A stretch of 6,653 bases of DNA from Chloroflexota bacterium (GTDB lineage Bacteria; Chloroflexota; Anaerolineae; Caldilineales; Caldilineaceae), in NCBI GenBank assembly GCA_003577005.1, contig QEUW01000413.1, positions 1 through 6,653 on the forward strand. The letters are read 5' to 3'. The translations under genes were made by a program, and so were the position numbers. Below are positions 1-6,653 of this stretch, piece by piece. Position 1 is the first letter of the stretch, and each line of letters opens with the position of its first letter. The notes under the pieces are model-generated. The model searched no databases, was not told where the DNA came from, and saw nothing but the letters and a program-made list of their open reading frames with translations.

Positions 1-678
1 CAGACTGGGGCCGGCAAGACCACGCTGACCAAGCTGCTCAATCGCACCTTTGATGCCAGCAGCGGGCGGGTCTTGATCGATGGGGTCGACGTGCGAGATT
101 GGAGCATGGACAGTCTGCGCGCCCAGATCGCCACGATTGAACAGGACATCTTTCTCTTTTCGCGCACCATCGCCGAAAACATCGCTTTTGGCGCACGCGA
201 GCCGGTCTCCCAGGCCCAGATCGAGGCCGCCGCACGCGAAGCCCAGGCACACGACTTTATCATGAGCTTCCCCCAGGGCTATGAAACGGTCATCGGCGAG
301 CGCGGCGTGATGCTCTCCGGTGGGCAGCGCCAACGGATTGCCATTGCCCGCGCCTTTCTCAGCGACCCGCGCATTCTCGTGCTGGATGACTCAACCAGCG
401 CCATCGACAGCAACACCGAAGACCAGATCCAACGGGCGATGCGCCGTATCCTCGAAGGGCGCACGACGCTGTTGATTACCCACCGGCTCTCGCAGATCCG
501 CAGCGCCGACCAGATCTTGCTCATGAAAAATGGCCGCCTGATCGCCCAGGGCGCGCACGATGAACTGATGGCAACCAGCGCCGCCTACCGCCAGATCTTC
601 GTGCCCGAGGAACGGCAGCAAGCAACCGGCGAGCGCGGCGTCCTGCAGATGGTGGATGTGCTAGAGAATTACACGTAA
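1..678 (+). CDS. ABC exporter half-transporter, C-terminal nucleotide-binding domain (5' partial)
   Basis: Seen: the frame is open from the first base, so the start and the whole transmembrane domain lie upstream; 225 codons remain. The sequence begins inside Walker A (QTGAGKTT, Lys at bases 16-18). It continues with the Q-loop Gln (142-144), a canonical LSGGQ signature (313-327), Walker [13 protein letters not shown] (373-408) and the H-loop His in LITHRLSQ (481-483). Walker B carries Asp (388-390) where the catalytic Glu normally sits. Known: this substitution is typical of the degenerate-site subunit of heterodimeric ABC exporters. Inference: with the gene that starts 13 bp downstream it forms a membrane heterodimer exporting a drug, lipid or peptide; the substrate cannot be read from the sequence. 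The C-terminal tail after the H-loop has the usual length. The family call is very secure; the substrate is unknown. Confidence 0.95.
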
Positions 679-680
679 AA

Positions 681-692
681 GGAAATTTTGTA
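681..692 (+). promoter_or_regulatory. Ribosome binding site deciding the start of the second ABC subunit
   Basis: The purine run AAAAGGAAA directly follows and overlaps the stop codon region of the first subunit gene. It lies 7-8 nt before the ATG at 692, so ribosomes ending the first gene can re-initiate on the second. This fits the near-equal amounts expected for a heterodimer. It favours the ATG at 692 over the in-frame ATG at 701. Confidence 0.6.
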
Positions 693-2506
693 TGGGCATC
701 ATGGGTGGGCTGAACGCCGAAGAATACGACCGTAGCTACAGCGACCGGGAACTGGTGCGGCGCATTGCGGTCTATTTTCGGCCTCATCTGGGCAAGGTGG
801 GGCTGGTGGCCGGGATGGTCACGCTGACCTCGTTGACCGGCACGCTGACGCCAATCGTCATTTCGCGGGCCATTGACACGCTGGAGGGCAACCCGCAGGT
901 GCAGGTGCTGATCGCGGCGGCGGCGGTCGTCACGGTGCTAGGGTCGCTCAACTGGGTTTTTAGCTTTGTCCAACAGTGGTTTTCGGCGCGCGCCGTGGCC
1001 AATGTGGTGTTGGCGCTGCGCGAAGATGCCTTTCGGGCGGTGATGCGCCGTGATCTTTCGTTCTACGACCAGCATGCCTCCGGACGCATCGTCAGCCGGG
1101 TCACGTCGGATACGCAAGACTTTGCCACCACCGTCACGCTGACCGTCGACCTGCTCAGCCAACTGGTGCTGGTCGGCGTGATCAGCATCGTGATGCTGAC
1201 GCGCAATGTGCAATTGGCGCTGATCACGCTGGCGCTTGGCCCCATCGTCGTGCTGATTGCGCTGGTCTTCCGCCGGCTGGCCCGGCACGCCATGCAACAG
1301 GCGCAGCGCGCCCAGGCCACGGTCAACGCCACCATCCAGGAGACGATCAGCGGGATCGCCGTCGCCAAAAACTTTCGCCAGGAAGCGACCATCTACAGCG
1401 ACTTTCAGGCGACCAACGAACTGGCCTATCGCATCCAACTGCGGCGGGTGGCTGTCTTTGGCAGCATCTTTCCCCTGCTCAATACGGTCTCGGGCATCGG
1501 CGTTGCCATCATCATCTATGTGGGCGGCCTGCTGGCAATCAACCGCACCCTCACGGTGGGTGAGTGGTATCTCTTTGTGCAGAGCCTGGCGATCTTTTTC
1601 TATCCTATCACCAGCATCGCCTCGTTTTGGAGCCAGTTTCAGCAGGGGCTGGCGGCCAGCGAGCGCGTCTTTGCCCTGATCGACGACGAACCGTTGGTGG
1701 TGCAAACGGCCCAGGAGCCGGTCGGGCGCTTGCGGGGCGAGATCACCTTTGAGCGGGTAACCTTCAATTACAGCACTGGGCGCAATACGGTCTTGCACGA
1801 CTTCTCGCTGACGATTCCAGCAGGTGAAACGCTGGCGATTGTCGGCCACACCGGTGCGGGCAAATCGAGCCTGGTGAAGCTGATCATGCGCTTTTACGAG
1901 TTCCAGGGTGGACGCCTCTTGATTGATGGCCGTGACATCCGCACGCTGGACCTGAGCCACTATCGCCGGCAGTTGGGGCTGGTGCCTCAAGTCCCCTTCC
2001 TCTTTTCGGGCACGGTGGCCGACAATATCCGCTATGGGCGGCCCGACGCCAGCGACGAGGAAGTGGCGGTTGCCGCTCGGCAGTTGGGTGACGGCAGTTG
2101 GCTGGATGACCTCTCCGAAGGCATCAACACCGATGTGGGCGAGCGCGGCGCCCGGCTTTCGCTGGGCCAGCGGCAACTGGTCGCCCTGGCGCGCATCCTG
2201 CTGCAAGATCCGGCGATCCTGCTGCTGGATGAGGCGACGGCCAGCATCGACCCGATCACCGAGGCGCAAGTCCAGGCCGCGCTGGCGACGGTGCTGCGCC
2301 GGCGCACCAGCATCGTCATCGCCCACCGCCTCTCGACCGTCCAGGCGGCGGACCGCATCATTGTCTTGCGCGAGGGGCAGATCATCGAAGAGGGCGATCA
2401 CGAGAGGTTGCTCGCCCGTGGCGGCCACTACGCCGAATTGTACACCACCTATTTCCGCCACCAGTCGCTAGAGTACATTGACTCGTGGCAGAAACGTGCG
2501 GCCTAA
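692..2506 (+). CDS. ABC exporter half-transporter, TMD-NBD (heterodimer partner)
   Basis: A 604-residue TMD-NBD half-transporter of normal length for type IV exporters. Six likely membrane helices lie near residues 35-60, 71-95, 153-171, 174-195, 253-283 and 290-315, with the ICL1-type motif SGRIVSRVTSDTQ at 130-142. The NBD shows A-loop Tyr360, Walker A GHTGAGKSS (385-393), Q-loop Gln433, signature LSLGQ (489-493), Walker B ILLLDEATASID with Asp513 and catalytic Glu514, and H-loop His545. The third signature position is Leu instead of Gly. This is complementary to the upstream subunit, which has a good signature but lacks the catalytic Glu. The start at 692 is supported by AAAAGGAAA (677-685), with AGGA 8 nt before the ATG; an in-frame ATG at 701 is an alternative. 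The 13-bp gap to the previous stop implies cotranscription and translational coupling. The substrate is not determinable. Confidence 0.97.
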   Translation: MGIMGGLNAEEYDRSYSDRELVRRIAVYFRPHLGKVGLVAGMVTLTSLTGTLTPIVISRAIDTLEGNPQVQVLIAAAAVVTVLGSLNWVFSFVQQWFSARAVANVVLALREDAFRAVMRRDLSFYDQHASGRIVSRVTSDTQDFATTVTLTVDLLSQLVLVGVISIVMLTRNVQLALITLALGPIVVLIALVFRRLARHAMQQAQRAQATVNATIQETISGIAVAKNFRQEATIYSDFQATNELAYRIQLRRVAVFGSIFPLLNTVSGIGVAIIIYVGGLLAINRTLTVGEWYLFVQSLAIFFYPITSIASFWSQFQQGLAASERVFALIDDEPLVVQTAQEPVGRLRGEITFERVTFNYSTGRNTVLHDFSLTIPAGETLAIVGHTGAGKSSLVKLIMRFYEFQGGRLLIDGRDIRTLDLSHYRRQLGLVPQVPFLFSGTVADNIRYGRPDASDEEVAVAARQLGDGSWLDDLSEGINTDVGERGARLSLGQRQLVALARILLQDPAILLLDEATASIDPITEAQVQAALATVLRRRTSIVIAHRLSTVQAADRIIVLREGQIIEEGDHERLLARGGHYAELYTTYFRHQSLEYIDSWQKRAA

Positions 2507-3021
2507 AGCTGTCCAAGTTGCTGCTGCGCTGTCCGTTCGGGTGCATCCGTCTGGTGTTGTAGATCCTCGCGCACGCGTATCGTCAGCGCCACGCGCGCCA
2601 TACCACATTCGATGGCCGTGCCACCCACTTCGCCATCACCCTGGACCGCATGACCATCCCCCAACGAGAGCAGTGCGCCCGAGACTTCGATCGGGAGATA
2701 GAGGGTGCTGCCGGCAACCAGCTCTTTGCAGTCCAGGTTGCCACCGGTGGCGCGTGGCGGCATGGTGCTGCGGATGCCGGGCGCAGCCGGCGCAACGCCA
2801 ATGATGCCCAGAAACGCCGTGGGCCGTGTTCTCAGTGATAGTCCAGTCGAGGCGCAGCCGGCGCAACGCCAATGATGCCCAGAAACGGGCGCAACCGCAG
2901 TTGATGACCCCCCGGGCTGGTGGCAATGCCCTGCGTCGCATCGTTCTGCCAGGGGATGAACGAATAGTCCTCGATCCCCAGCTGAAGGTGTCGAGGTTAC
3001 GCACTGTGGCACCCAAGCCAC
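2503..3021 (-). pseudogene. Acetamidase/formamidase family (FmdA/AmdA) pseudogene
   Basis: Reading the minus strand, one frame (2814 down to 2572) gives a clear central block of the acetamidase/formamidase family: FLGIIGVAPAAPG, then PRATGGNLDCKELVAGSTLY, then GDGHAVQGDGEVGGTAIEC. Members hydrolyse formamide or short amides to the acid and ammonia. The preceding part, from IEDYSFIPWQND to RLRPFLGIIGVAPAAP (2975 to about 2846), is in another frame and runs into a TGA at 2832-2834. The family usually has about 300 residues or more; here the N-terminal third is unrecognisable. The C-terminal part (normally continuing past a Pro-Arg-x-Glu-Thr-Pro-like stretch) is missing, with a stop at 2503-2505 overlapping the ABC gene's stop. 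The damage comprises a 71-bp insertion, a probable 1-base loss at 2976-2979 and a 3' deletion. The family call rests on remembered motifs. The gene is almost certainly non-functional unless the assembly is wrong. Confidence 0.75.
2780..2887. repeat. 37-bp perfect direct repeat (2780-2816 and 2851-2887) inside the amidase pseudogene
   Basis: Two identical 37-bp copies lie 71 bp apart (start to start), separated by a 34-bp unique spacer (2817-2850). On the minus strand both encode FLGIIGVAPAAP, but because 71 is not a multiple of three they fall in different frames relative to one another. Deleting 71 bp (one copy plus spacer) joins the two amidase fragments into a single open frame. The repeat is therefore the scar of an insertion or duplication that broke the gene, not a regulatory element. 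Confidence 0.9.
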
Positions 3022-3126
3022 CGCGCCGCCGAAGCGGCGGTCATGAGCCTCGCCCCGTGCCTTTGCCTATTTAATCATGTCCATGCTTCGTACAGGCAAC
3101 CCCGGCCATGGCGGCCAGGCTGACTG

Positions 3127-3161
3127 ATTCGGTCTGGTCCATTGGCCGAATTAGCATTTTT
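3127..3161 (+). terminator. Possible weak intrinsic terminator
   Basis: ATTCGGTC (3127-3134) pairs with GGCCGAAT (3144-3151), an 8-bp stem with one T-G wobble and a 9-nt loop. Five T residues follow at 3157-3161, after a 5-nt gap. It is oriented to stop + strand read-through before the secreted-protein gene. The stem is short and the gap to the T-run unfavourable, so the call is weak. Confidence 0.25.
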
Positions 3162-3190
3162 CCCCCGTTTTTCCCCCGGTTTTTATCCCG
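3157..3190. repeat. Three 11-bp tandem units, TTTTTCCCCCG-like
   Basis: TTTTTCCCCCG occurs at 3157-3167 and 3168-3178. After one extra G, a variant (TTTTTATCCCG) lies at 3180-3190. The spacing is about one helical turn. It may be slipped-strand expansion or a bent/flexible DNA element; no function is known. Confidence 0.7.
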
Positions 3191-3336
3191 CTAACCGGGT
3201 TCCTCTGCCGCTGCGGCTGTGGTTCAATCATCCTCGCAAAAAGTCAATTATCACAGAGCGGACCATCAATTATTCTCCATTGACTTGGGGTCTTCCGGTC
3301 TGACCGCGGCAGGCCGTGACCATACATGCACTATCT

Positions 3337-3360
3337 CGATGATTGTAACGATGAATGTAA
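3337..3360. repeat. 12-bp tandem repeat in the leader of the vitellogenin-like gene
   Basis: CGATGATTGTAA (3337-3348) is followed directly by CGATGAATGTAA (3349-3360), differing at one base. It lies just upstream of a strong Shine-Dalgarno (3366-3372). The position and tandem form would suit binding of a regulator to DNA or RNA, but a simple slippage duplication is equally possible. Confidence 0.7.
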
Positions 3361-3379
3361 TCAAGAAAAGGAGAACAAC

Positions 3380-3406
3380 ATGTCGTATTTTAGCAATGGG
3401 TTTTAG
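3380..3406 (+). CDS. Possible 8-residue leader peptide (mini-ORF)
   Basis: AAAAGGAG (3365-3372) is the best Shine-Dalgarno in the window. It sits 7 nt before an ATG that opens an 8-codon frame, MSYFSNGF, closed by TAG at 3404-3406. The large secreted-protein gene starts 59 nt further on, in a different frame, with its own weaker site (AGGAG, 3450-3454). A translated leader could tune expression of the downstream gene by coupling or attenuation, but no paired hairpins or codon runs (such as repeated regulatory codons) were seen. It could also be the relic of a former start. Translation is not proven. Confidence 0.3.
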   Translation: MSYFSNGF

Positions 3407-3449
3407 CGTGATTTTGTTTACAACTAGAAAAATTAGATACCAGTCTAGT

Positions 3450-3466
3450 AGGAGATCGATTTATCA
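3450..3466 (+). promoter_or_regulatory. Ribosome binding site of the vitellogenin-like gene
   Basis: AGGAG at 3450-3454 lies 11 nt before the ATG at 3466, a slightly long but workable spacing. The frame is open upstream back to a TGA at 3409-3411 but holds no ATG, GTG or TTG there, so 3466 is the first possible usual start. Confidence 0.6.
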
Positions 3467-6171
3467 TGGCTCAAGTTTTCAGACGGCTGCATCTGAAGCA
3501 GTCTACGGTCCACAAAGTATTCAATATACTCCTGGTGTTCATGTTGTTGGTGAGCTTGCTCCCTACCCCGGTGCAGGCAGCTCCCGAACAACCAGACGCC
3601 GCCAATAACAAAATCTTCTTGCCCGTTGTCACCTCGAACACTGACCAGGTGATGAGTAGTAAGGCCACGCCGAAATTGTTCGGAACTACCCCGCGCAAGT
3701 TTCACTATGAGGTCGGCAAGGTCTATCGATATGACTATTCCGTCCAGATCGACACCTCTACCGCCAAACGCGATACCCTGGGCATCCACGAGGAGGGCGG
3801 CGGGTCCACCGTTATTCACGCCATTGCCAACGTGACGATTACGGGCCAGGAAGACGATGGGACGTTTGCCGGCGAGCTTGCGCTGCAAGAGCCCTCTCTC
3901 TACCATACCGACGGCACGACCCAATCTGATCTCGAAGACGTCGAGACGCTCGATGCCCTGTCCATTCCGCTGCGTTTTAAGCAGGCCGTCAACGGGGTGA
4001 TCACCGCGGTCTCCTCGCCCGCCGATGCACCGGCGCAGGTCGTGAACATCCAAAAAGGCGTGTTGAATGCGCTACAGGTCACGCTGGTGGAGGGCCAGGA
4101 CGACTATGTCGTTCAGGAGCAGGCCGGCCAGGGTGAGGTCCAGGTTCACTATACGCTTCAAGAGCAGGGCGATGGGCTGCACATTACCAAGCACTACACG
4201 CAGGACAGTTTCACCAGGCTCATCAAGGCCGGCGACCAGGCCAACAGCATGAAACTGCAGAATGCGATTGAATTTGTTTTGGACCGCGAGAAGGGCGTGA
4301 TTTCGTCCATGGTCTACAACGAAGGCATTGCCAGCGGAGATGGCAACGCCGACTTCGACCCCTCGAACACGGGCTTCGACGGTGTCACCACCTGGTCCAC
4401 CATAAAATCAGCCGGCCGACTGGCGCTGCTGGGGGTCAATGACGCCATCGTCGGCAAAGCGGGAATAGAGTTGACCTACAGGGCTGATTCACTCGCCGCC
4501 GAGCTGACCGAGGGGTACCCCAACCAGGATGGCATCGACCTGAGCCAGGTGGACCTGGACAGCGAACTGGCCCGGCTGGAAGGCGAGCCGGACAATCCTG
4601 AGCACCACGCTCGCCTGCTTTCGCTGATCGAAGCCGATACCGCAGATCCGAACAATAACATTGATGTGTTAAAGCTGATCGCCCGGCGTTTACAGGCAAA
4701 TGCCGCCAGCGATGCCATTGCCACGGCCTATATCGACGTGTTGGGTTCCGTCGGCACAGCGCAGGCCCAGGAGATGTTGAACGCTGTGCTGGGCAATCCG
4801 CAGGTTTACCCCGAGTTGGCCCAGGCGCCCTTTGGCCCAGCCGCCAAAGACCAGGCGCTGATCATGATTGCCATGCTGCAATCGCCGACGAGCATGACCG
4901 TGGAGACAGTGAAGCCGCTGATCGACAGCGTCGATCCGGTGTTGCGCGAGACTGCTGTCACCGTGTTGGGCGCTATCGCTGACCACCTGGCCAACGAAGA
5001 CCCGGCGCAGGCGCAGCAACTTGCTGATCTGCTAGCCGCCAATCTGGCTGCGGCGCGTGAGCCGGCCGACATTGAACTCTATCTGAATGCGTTGGGCAAT
5101 GCTGGTTCGCCTGCTTCGCTGAAACTGCTCCAGTCGTACCTGCACGCCACCGTGATGATCGACAGTACTGGCGAGATTACCGATGCGCTGGAGCTGCAGA
5201 CCGCCGCGCTGGTCGGTCTGCGCAAAATCCCTGGCGCCGAAGCCGAAGCGCTGCTGGTAGAGGCGCTCAACGATAGCACACGACCCACGAGTATCCGGTT
5301 GATGGTCGCCAATGTCTTGGTGGAACGCGACGGGCTGAGCGACACAGCACAGACGGCCCTTGACCAGTTTGCCATGGACCTCACGGCGGCGCCGGGGAAC
5401 TACAATTACGCCTGGACAAAGCTGTTGGGCAACAAAAATCTGGGGGTTGAGTTTCCGGGTGGCATCAATGTCGCCAGCCCACCGGCGGCCATCGGCCTCA
5501 CCGCCTACGCCCATCAATCGACCAACGCCTGGATCTACGGGCGCTCGCTCAGTCTGGCCAAGGGCGAACTGCGTAGCTTCCGCCGGGGCGACAATCAAGT
5601 CTTTGGCGCCTACCTGAGCCTGGCTGGCAATCTCATTCGCCGCCAGTACGAGCTAGAGTTTCCCTGCGCTGTCTCCCGCACCGGGAATCTCTTCAACGGT
5701 TCGCTGCAATTTCTGAATGTGACCTATAGCGTGCCGGTCTTTGCAGTCATCACGCTCAATGTCAACGTGCGCGCCAGTGGCAGTTTTGCCCTGGACTGGA
5801 ACTATGGTGCGGATTTCTGTGGGATTACCCAGGTCACACTCAACGCTGGGATCACCCCAAAAGCTTGGGTCACGGCGAACGCCAGCGCCTATCTTGACCT
5901 GGTGGTAGTGCGTGGCGGGGCGACGCTAACCGCCACCTTATTGAAGACTGACGTGCCGGCCAAGGTCTCCGTTGTCTTGAATGGCGCCTCGTCGCCGCCG
6001 TCGCTGCAATTCTGCATCGACATCAAGGTGATCACCCAGCCGCTCAGTGGCTATCTAGACGTGTGGGCGGATGTGAGAGTCTGGTTGTATTGGCAGCGGA
6101 TTGGCTCGGCCCGAATCTGGAACTTTAGCACACCAAGCAACACCTATCCCTTGTGGGTTCAGTGCTACTAA
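3466..6171 (+). CDS. Secreted vitellogenin/MTP-like large lipid transfer protein homologue
   Basis: A 901-residue exported protein. Residues 1-38 are a signal peptide (basic start, hydrophobic core near 19-32, cleavage after VQA38). A linker with NKIFLPVV (48-55) follows. Residues about 78-310 are beta-rich and resemble the vitellogenin/lipoprotein N-terminal domain: KVYRYDYSVQID (85-96), LSIPLRFKQAVNGVI (165-179), VVNIQKGVLNALQVTL (192-207), then YVVQEQAGQGEVQVHYTLQE (214-233). Residues about 365-640 are a helical-repeat domain with family-like landmarks: YIDVLGSVGTAQAQEML (422-438), LRETAVTVLGAIADHLAN (493-510) and LNALGNAGSPASLKLL (540-555). Residues about 660-901 are beta-rich and hold all four cysteines (734, 785, 850, 900). 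Known: in animals this module binds and transfers lipids (MTP, vitellogenin, apoB). Inference: extracytoplasmic lipid binding or transfer. The overall length is close to MTP. Alternative: a generic HEAT-repeat surface protein. The CDS is near certain; the family assignment rests on motif recall without a search. Confidence 0.82.
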   Translation: MAQVFRRLHLKQSTVHKVFNILLVFMLLVSLLPTPVQAAPEQPDAANNKIFLPVVTSNTDQVMSSKATPKLFGTTPRKFHYEVGKVYRYDYSVQIDTSTAKRDTLGIHEEGGGSTVIHAIANVTITGQEDDGTFAGELALQEPSLYHTDGTTQSDLEDVETLDALSIPLRFKQAVNGVITAVSSPADAPAQVVNIQKGVLNALQVTLVEGQDDYVVQEQAGQGEVQVHYTLQEQGDGLHITKHYTQDSFTRLIKAGDQANSMKLQNAIEFVLDREKGVISSMVYNEGIASGDGNADFDPSNTGFDGVTTWSTIKSAGRLALLGVNDAIVGKAGIELTYRADSLAAELTEGYPNQDGIDLSQVDLDSELARLEGEPDNPEHHARLLSLIEADTADPNNNIDVLKLIARRLQANAASDAIATAYIDVLGSVGTAQAQEMLNAVLGNPQVYPELAQAPFGPAAKDQALIMIAMLQSPTSMTVETVKPLIDSVDPVLRETAVTVLGAIADHLANEDPAQAQQLADLLAANLAAAREPADIELYLNALGNAGSPASLKLLQSYLHATVMIDSTGEITDALELQTAALVGLRKIPGAEAEALLVEALNDSTRPTSIRLMVANVLVERDGLSDTAQTALDQFAMDLTAAPGNYNYAWTKLLGNKNLGVEFPGGINVASPPAAIGLTAYAHQSTNAWIYGRSLSLAKGELRSFRRGDNQVFGAYLSLAGNLIRRQYELEFPCAVSRTGNLFNGSLQFLNVTYSVPVFAVITLNVNVRASGSFALDWNYGADFCGITQVTLNAGITPKAWVTANASAYLDLVVVRGGATLTATLLKTDVPAKVSVVLNGASSPPSLQFCIDIKVITQPLSGYLDVWADVRVWLYWQRIGSARIWNFSTPSNTYPLWVQCY

Positions 6172-6194: not shown

Positions 6195-6227
6195 ACCTTC
6201 CCGGAAGCTCGACGCTGCCGGGAAGGT
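6195..6227 (+). terminator. Strong hairpin between the two secreted-protein genes (no clear T-run)
   Basis: ACCTTCCCGG (6195-6204) pairs perfectly with CCGGGAAGGT (6218-6227), a 10-bp GC-rich stem. The loop can add three more pairs (AGC/GCT) past one mismatch. It starts 24 nt after the stop of the vitellogenin-like gene, as a transcription terminator would. It is not followed by a T-tract, so it may instead be a partial terminator or an mRNA 3'-end stabiliser. Confidence 0.55.
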
Positions 6228-6284
6228 TGAAGCAGAGTTGTAAGCTTGCTTTCTAACCTAAAAAATATCCAAAAGGTTCATCCA

Positions 6285-6653
6285 ATGTCGAGACAATTTT
6301 TTACACAAATGGCTGTACTCACGCTTTCCTTGCTGCTGGGTAACCTGCTCGTCCAAAGCTTATATCCCCAAGCAGTTCAAGCCGAGCGGAGTAGCAGACC
6401 GATCAGAGACGCTCATCCAACAACCGCTGGGGCTGACTTTGCCATCGCCTATGTCGGCCCCAGCCGCGAGAGCCAGCAGATCCGGCTGATCAACCCCGAC
6501 GGTAGCAATGATCGCCCCCTGTGGCAAGCGCCGCCAAACACAACGCGCCAGCAAGGGATCGGCGAACTCGGTTGGCGGAGCGATGCCAGCGAACTGGCCT
6601 TTGACAGCGGGCACGACTGGCAACGCTCGATGAACATCCGTGACATCTACTCG
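6285..6653 (+). CDS. Secreted TolB-like (PD40) beta-propeller protein, 3' partial
   Basis: The frame is open from ATG 6285 to the last base, giving 123 codons; the rest lies beyond the window. AAAAGG (6271-6276) is 8 nt before the ATG. Met9 (6309) is a less likely alternative start because it lacks such a site. Residues 1-33 are a signal peptide (hydrophobic stretch about 10-24, cleavage after VQA33). After a polar linker the mature part reads FAIAYVG (52-58), IRLINPDGSN (66-75) and LGWRSDASELAFDS (95-108). This is the pattern of PD40/TolB propeller blades ('INPDGSN... W SPDG..IAF'). Known: such propellers mediate protein or ligand binding, in TolB and in many extracellular proteins. Here the Asp-Ala-Ser in place of Asp-Gly-Ser is a minor deviation. 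It lies 113 bp downstream of the vitellogenin-like gene on the same strand, so the two may be functionally linked. What follows the first blades is unknown. Confidence 0.75.
   Translation, partial: MSRQFFTQMAVLTLSLLLGNLLVQSLYPQAVQAERSSRPIRDAHPTTAGADFAIAYVGPSRESQQIRLINPDGSNDRPLWQAPPNTTRQQGIGELGWRSDASELAFDSGHDWQRSMNIRDIYS

Follow-up and report, generated by a model that had tools for sequence, protein, structure and literature searches.

The window considered here, that is, the whole stretch of 6,653 nucleotides that was analysed, comes from contig QEUW01000413.1 of a Caldilineaceae bacterium (Chloroflexota, whose members are not known to have a classical outer membrane). As listed in Table 1, two ABC exporter open reading frames (ORFs) lie to the left of a complete gene on the forward strand, and a truncated ORF follows it. 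The complete gene encodes a 901-residue protein, which is an MTP-sized bacterial member of the large lipid transfer protein (LLTP) superfamily and is probably exported, judging from its leader as read by eye. In animals, MTP, vitellogenin and apolipoprotein B (apoB) serve the loading and transport of fat, and the superfamily is treated as an animal one, with the LLT module as its marker, in the accessible part of PMC1783640. The first-pass annotation, made from the sequence alone, had proposed a bacterial homologue of these animal proteins; the profile matches and the fold ranking described below support it.

Membership in the LLTP superfamily

The Pfam scan of the 901-residue protein returned Vitellogenin_N (PF01347) at E=2.9e-28 and 99.2 bits (cut-off 24), in two stretches. 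Since the PF01347 model might itself include bacterial members, a phmmer search with the single protein against 177,635 distinct PDB sequences weighs more as an independent test. Its sole match up to E=10 was lipovitellin (1lsh_A, E=3.7e-9), in two colinear stretches (query residues 162-233 and 490-588). These stretches contain the animal-like motifs to which the first-pass annotation had drawn attention; the motifs are present at residues 194-207, 494-510 and 540-551, and the PF01347 and lipovitellin scores place them beyond chance. The Vitellogenin_N match recurred in all 20 aligned members, the window protein included, and likewise in 14 of 14 members of a further alignment.

Two family profiles were compared with the PDB, A2 (20 members) and A3 (14 more divergent members). 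A2 gave 14 matches up to E=1: lipovitellin (2.7e-17), the MTP large subunit twice (about 6e-4; best 6.2e-4), honey bee vitellogenin (0.53) and, for the remaining 10, artificial repeat proteins with E from 0.0035 up. The same profile aligned MTP RETVMIITGTLVRKL with the family counterpart of RETAVTVLGAIADHL, which bears out the comparison with MTP drawn earlier. A3 found lipovitellin at 1.5e-29 over residues 2-506 and MTP at 9e-17, with artificial HEAT proteins ranking between the two.

Could the protein be a HEAT-repeat protein without homology to LLTPs, whose motifs resemble theirs by chance? HEAT_2 matches do occur in the window protein, below the Pfam cut-off, and many PF01347 matches in genomes cover the helical part only (5/7 and 10/16, see below). 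However, a profile of the N-terminal barrel alone, which has no HEAT part, retrieved lipovitellin (7.3e-13), MTP (9.5e-6 and 9.7e-6) and honey bee vitellogenin (0.083), and nothing besides these up to E=1; the fold search agrees. With a profile of the helical part minus its last repeats, an artificial repeat protein (7e-6) ranked ahead of lipovitellin (9e-4) and MTP (6e-3). Thus, the PF01347 match is independent of HEAT repeats, a HEAT-repeat-only protein is ruled out, and chance likeness can hardly be the explanation.

Domain layout and predicted fold

The structure model, built from bacterial sequences, has a pTM of 0.40, so that the relative placement of the domains is unsure. Within it, a beta domain, an alpha-helical domain and a second beta domain follow one another, in the order that had been predicted (Table 1). 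When the whole model was searched with Foldseek, the 11 top matches were all MTP, lipovitellin, vitellogenin and apoB chains; the predicted fold is thus not a plain HEAT solenoid. The best match was MTP (E=8.9e-33, with 12% identity over the fold alignment), and identity to animal proteins in the fold alignments was 9-20%. The near-equal length of the window protein and MTP (901 and 894 residues), already pointed out in the annotation, goes along with a likeness at fold level that reaches the C-terminal domain, where MTP binds lipid. A chain of about 890 residues with three domains, ending in a lipid-binding domain, is a trait of the MTP family, and the modelled fold displays it from end to end. 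The MTP-family placement suggested here is therefore one by layout at the level of the predicted fold, not by tree.

The C-terminal beta domain was also folded separately. For these last 262 residues, the best Foldseek match was the MTP lipid-binding domain at 1.8e-7, against 1.2e-2 for a membrane or pore barrel. A second Foldseek run aligned the domain to MTP residues 613-877, with MTP tied with one short unrelated match. The domain is amphipathic in the beta period in 40 of 40 alignment rows. A pore-forming barrel that acts on the membranes of other cells, for example in predation, is very improbable as a reading of this domain: Foldseek favours MTP by almost five orders of magnitude, and the rest of the protein has the domain make-up of a lipid carrier.

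All four cysteines of the window protein (734, 785, 850 and 900) lie in this domain. In the 40-row alignment, which includes two identical pairs, Cys734 and Cys785 are present in every row, while Cys850 and Cys900 are both present in 28 rows, both absent in 11 and single in 1. Loss of the latter pair marks the Herpetosiphon clade and, as a separate event, P0012. Two other pairs of columns co-occur as well (19 rows with both and 1 with a single cysteine; 9 rows with both and none single). Since the pairs come and go jointly, as expected of an exported protein, Cys734-785 and Cys850-900 are likely disulfide pairs, as far as sequence comparison can tell.

Table 1. Features of the window and the BTAD regulators at related loci. 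L, G and C numbers are handles for loci, genomes and contigs; entries without a handle lie in the window.
Feature	Location	Strand or side	Details and basis
ABC exporter ORF, cut at window start	1-678	left of gene	Pfam ABC_tran
ABC exporter ORF	692-2506	left of gene	Pfam ABC_tran and ABC_membrane
AGGAG, Shine-Dalgarno-like	3450..3454	+	11 bases to ATG; direct reading of sequence
Bacterial large lipid transfer protein gene	3466..6171	+	901 aa/codons, ATG start, no internal stop; PF01347, lipovitellin match, model and fold search
Putative Sec-type signal peptide	3466..3582	+	residues 1-39; by eye; predicted helix 12-30 in model
IFLPVV motif after signal peptide	3613..3630	+	residues 50-55; similar motif in many alignment rows
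N-terminal beta domain (barrel), predicted	3718..4488	+	residues 85-341, strands; model, barrel profile alone; helix 190-202 holds most of NIQKGVLNALQ
Alpha-helical domain, predicted	4555..5367	+	residues 364-634, helices; model; lipovitellin and MTP aligned over domain
C-terminal beta domain, predicted	5395..6165	+	residues 644-900, strands; model; counterpart of MTP lipid-binding domain
Inverted repeat CCTTCCCGG...CCGGGAAGG	6196..6226	+	24 bases past stop codon, no T run; direct reading
ORF cut by window end	6279-6653	+	leader; TolB-type secreted propeller-like pattern (by eye); weak Pfam DUF4394 (E=0.069)
BTAD regulator, L034	9301-12453		
BTAD regulator, L066	9466-12756		
BTAD regulator, L003	13566-16862		
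BTAD regulator, L002	6070-9360		
BTAD regulator, G764:C978	14472-14930		

Proposed function

The helical domain and the C-terminal sheets of MTP and lipovitellin shelter lipid between them. By analogy, I propose that the window protein is an exported, disulfide-held, extracytoplasmic lipid carrier, with a rough probability of 60%. The protein would leave the cell through Sec, guided by its signal peptide; a hydrophobic Sec-type leader ending in PVQAA is present on reading by eye, and the annotation had likewise noted a signal peptide. The putative disulfides would lock it outside. A lipid could then be sheltered, as in MTP and lipovitellin, between its helical domain and C-terminal sheets, and could cross the aqueous phase from a membrane to an extracytoplasmic partner or back. 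As a guess, such lipids might be food from lysed cells or prey, or might serve to build the cell's own surface; lipid traffic to or from the surface might suit a bacterium feeding on prey or on complex organic material.

The protein may instead be a true LLTP homologue that carries no lipid and acts, for example, in adhesion, as a platform for binding, or as a large component of the surface or matrix. Several points favour this possible but rather doubtful alternative and weigh against a carrier. The member at L002 ends in a ricin-type lectin domain, and those at L003 and L065 carry about 170 extra C-terminal residues, as proteins that bind surfaces would; the family is patchy (12 of 184 genomes); and vitellogenin is said to bind pathogens in the accessible part of PMC8727950. 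On the other side, the MTP-like domain is amphipathic in every alignment row, including those of the majority of members, which have no extra domains. If the protein is a lipid carrier, the lectin tail at L002 could tether that member to glycans. The extra C-terminal parts belong to ORFs at 9839-13225 (L002), 9980-13369 (L003) and 979-4374 (L065, with a tail similar in length to that of L003); a Pfam scan of the L003 extension gave no match.

Distribution and origin

Protein database searches returned 21 members including the window protein and 4 more, two of which are named Herpetosiphon; they scored just the 7992-7996 candidates with most words in common. Whole-genome searches with the family profiles covered 184 genomes and revealed full-length genes in 12 of them, 15 genes in all, distributed over three Chloroflexota orders: 4/46 in the order of G001 (Caldilineales by NCBI lineage), 6/82 in the order of Herpetosiphon and 2/56 in the order of G003 ('Chloroflexi bacterium'). 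A third genome in the last order, G763, has the C-terminal half only. Short matches to the helical part alone were found in 4 further genomes in the order of Herpetosiphon and 6 in that of G003. When PF01347 was used at E<=0.001, 7 of 298 genomes matched in a search by class and 16 of 400 in one by phylum, while none of the 14 control genomes did; the barrel and the helical part were both matched in 2 and 6 of these genomes, respectively, and the helical part only in the others. These genome searches centred on genomes already found, all of them Chloroflexota or in an order containing one. Two scans of genome contigs relied on strict peptide patterns and missed Herpetosiphon genes that were recovered later.

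A tree was built from 39 bacterial proteins, 37 of them distinct; in it the window protein belongs to a starred group of 8, together with P0007, which bears the name Caldilineaceae. The orders interleave in this tree (L002 with G764; G525 with G121 and G674), which points to ancient duplication or transfer within the Chloroflexota, although some of the joins lie between long branches. The genome G392, taken as Herpetosiphon aurantiacus DSM 785, has three paralogues, one of them on the plasmid pHAU01. Integrase and transposase genes are annotated close to this plasmid gene (Haur_5045; CP000876.1, L036 11905-14493), and the plasmid setting is a possible route of spread.

Was the gene taken over fairly recently from an animal? 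The superfamily is described as animal in the part of PMC1783640 cited above, and searches of limited reach recognised no member outside the Chloroflexota. After such a late transfer, the bacterial proteins should closely resemble those of a single animal group. Rather, identity among the bacterial members goes down to 18%, close to the range seen in fold alignments with animal proteins, and the members are found in three orders, with long branches between the clades. Thus, I regard a recent animal source as highly unlikely. Eukaryotic contamination is ruled out by the Shine-Dalgarno-like site, by the bacterial ABC exporter genes on the same contig, and by relatives on a 6.3-Mb contig and on the plasmid of a cultured bacterium. 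Carriage by mobile elements or viruses was also set aside: 50,697 phage records gave 0 matches and 72,556 plasmid records gave one, none of 162 pattern matches in viral contigs was confirmed as a relative, and a BFVD fold search gave nothing at E<=0.001.

Gene neighbourhood and local sequence

Of the two exporter ORFs in the window, the first shares 73% identity over 134 aa with an exporter at L001 (12481-14064), which lies 5.6 kb downstream of the L001 gene; the gene order and the intervening genes of the two settings are not alike. Of 7 full-length loci in two orders, 5 have a BTAD/SARP-type regulator adjoining the gene (Table 1), convergently in 4 cases and divergently in 1. The four regulators that were scanned whole have NTPase and TPR parts; the G764:C978 case also rests on a TPR end in L065. 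No BTAD regulator stands beside the gene in the ORF lists of L001 and G764:C814. BTAD matches number 16-44 in each of the six genomes. Neither the exporter likeness nor the BTAD regulator tells what the protein carries.

Some other observations were made on the local sequence. On the reverse strand at 2503-3021 lies a decayed-looking acetamidase/formamidase-like fragment, recognised by eye, with a direct repeat near 2780-2890. The GC content by block is 0.55-0.63 in the gene from 3601 on, slightly under the 0.61-0.66 of blocks 1-3000. The inverted repeat behind the gene is missing from the terminator-scan listing. A short motif, IFLPVV or YLPLV, stands behind the signal peptide in many family members, and other proteins have it close to their N- or C-terminal end; besides the window, examples are the C-terminus of the L001 ORF 6945-11192 and L003 8782-9699. 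Exported proteins of the Chloroflexota may commonly carry this motif as a tag.

Prior knowledge and significance

That this superfamily is studied almost wholly in animals, as the annotation held, fits the literature among the matches listed; the presence of the fold in bacteria, on the other hand, had already been tabulated. In the part consulted of PMC4060292 (2014), both lipovitellin superfamilies are listed as common to Bacteria and Eukarya, and the accessible parts of PMC3837014 and PMC9012834 add nothing on bacterial members. No study of bacterial LLTPs was among the matches listed, most subscription papers and preprints being outside the coverage. Tables and public records thus already show the domain in bacteria; no description of the MTP-type layout, of its occurrence in three orders or of a C-terminal domain like that of MTP was found among the matches listed.

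A machinery known from animals therefore has a bacterial branch that can be tested for lipid carriage outside the cell, possibly a new means of extracellular lipid movement in bacteria without a classical outer membrane. The cultured H. aurantiacus DSM 785 with its three paralogues makes this idea testable, and for studies of structure and lipid transfer, a small single-chain protein may be producible in Escherichia coli without protein disulfide isomerase (PDI). Having the layout of MTP, the bacterial branch also offers an outgroup for rooting the LLTP superfamily. As a speculation that I consider unlikely on present evidence, an exported MTP-type lipid shuttle of Chloroflexota might be the bacterial counterpart of lipoprotein assembly, and animal LLTPs might descend from such a protein, either through an ancient transfer or from a common ancestor; the ancestral form would then be the short, single-chain one of MTP and not vitellogenin.

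Comparison with known relatives

Haur_5045 of pHAU01 ('Lipid transport protein domain') and the NCBI entry 'lipid transporter [Herpetosiphon sp.]', so named in public records, are bacterial members of the same family. They differ from the window protein in lacking Cys850 and Cys900, with 23-25% identity to it. The window protein is roughly half as long as honey bee vitellogenin, which has 1770 residues, and is without a von Willebrand D (VWD) domain; it ends at residue 901, without the long lipid-binding tail of apoB. The Pfam scan (max E=10), in which HMMER filters discard most matches above about 0.1, found neither VWD, which marks the vitellogenin/clotting protein family close to the C-terminus, nor DUF1081, a mark of the APO family (apoB, apolipophorin), and besides Vitellogenin_N only HEAT families and a weak DUF3237. 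Thus, the protein is not assigned to the vitellogenin or apoB family.

In contrast, it resembles the MTP large subunit in its length, in the order of the three domains and in a C-terminal domain that aligns to MTP over the region given above (domain limits from PMC8304645). Unlike MTP, which forms a heterodimer with PDI, the window protein is bacterial, has its own cysteine pairs and has no known PDI, no PDI-like gene being recognised beside the window gene; its leader would direct it out of the cell rather than into the endoplasmic reticulum.
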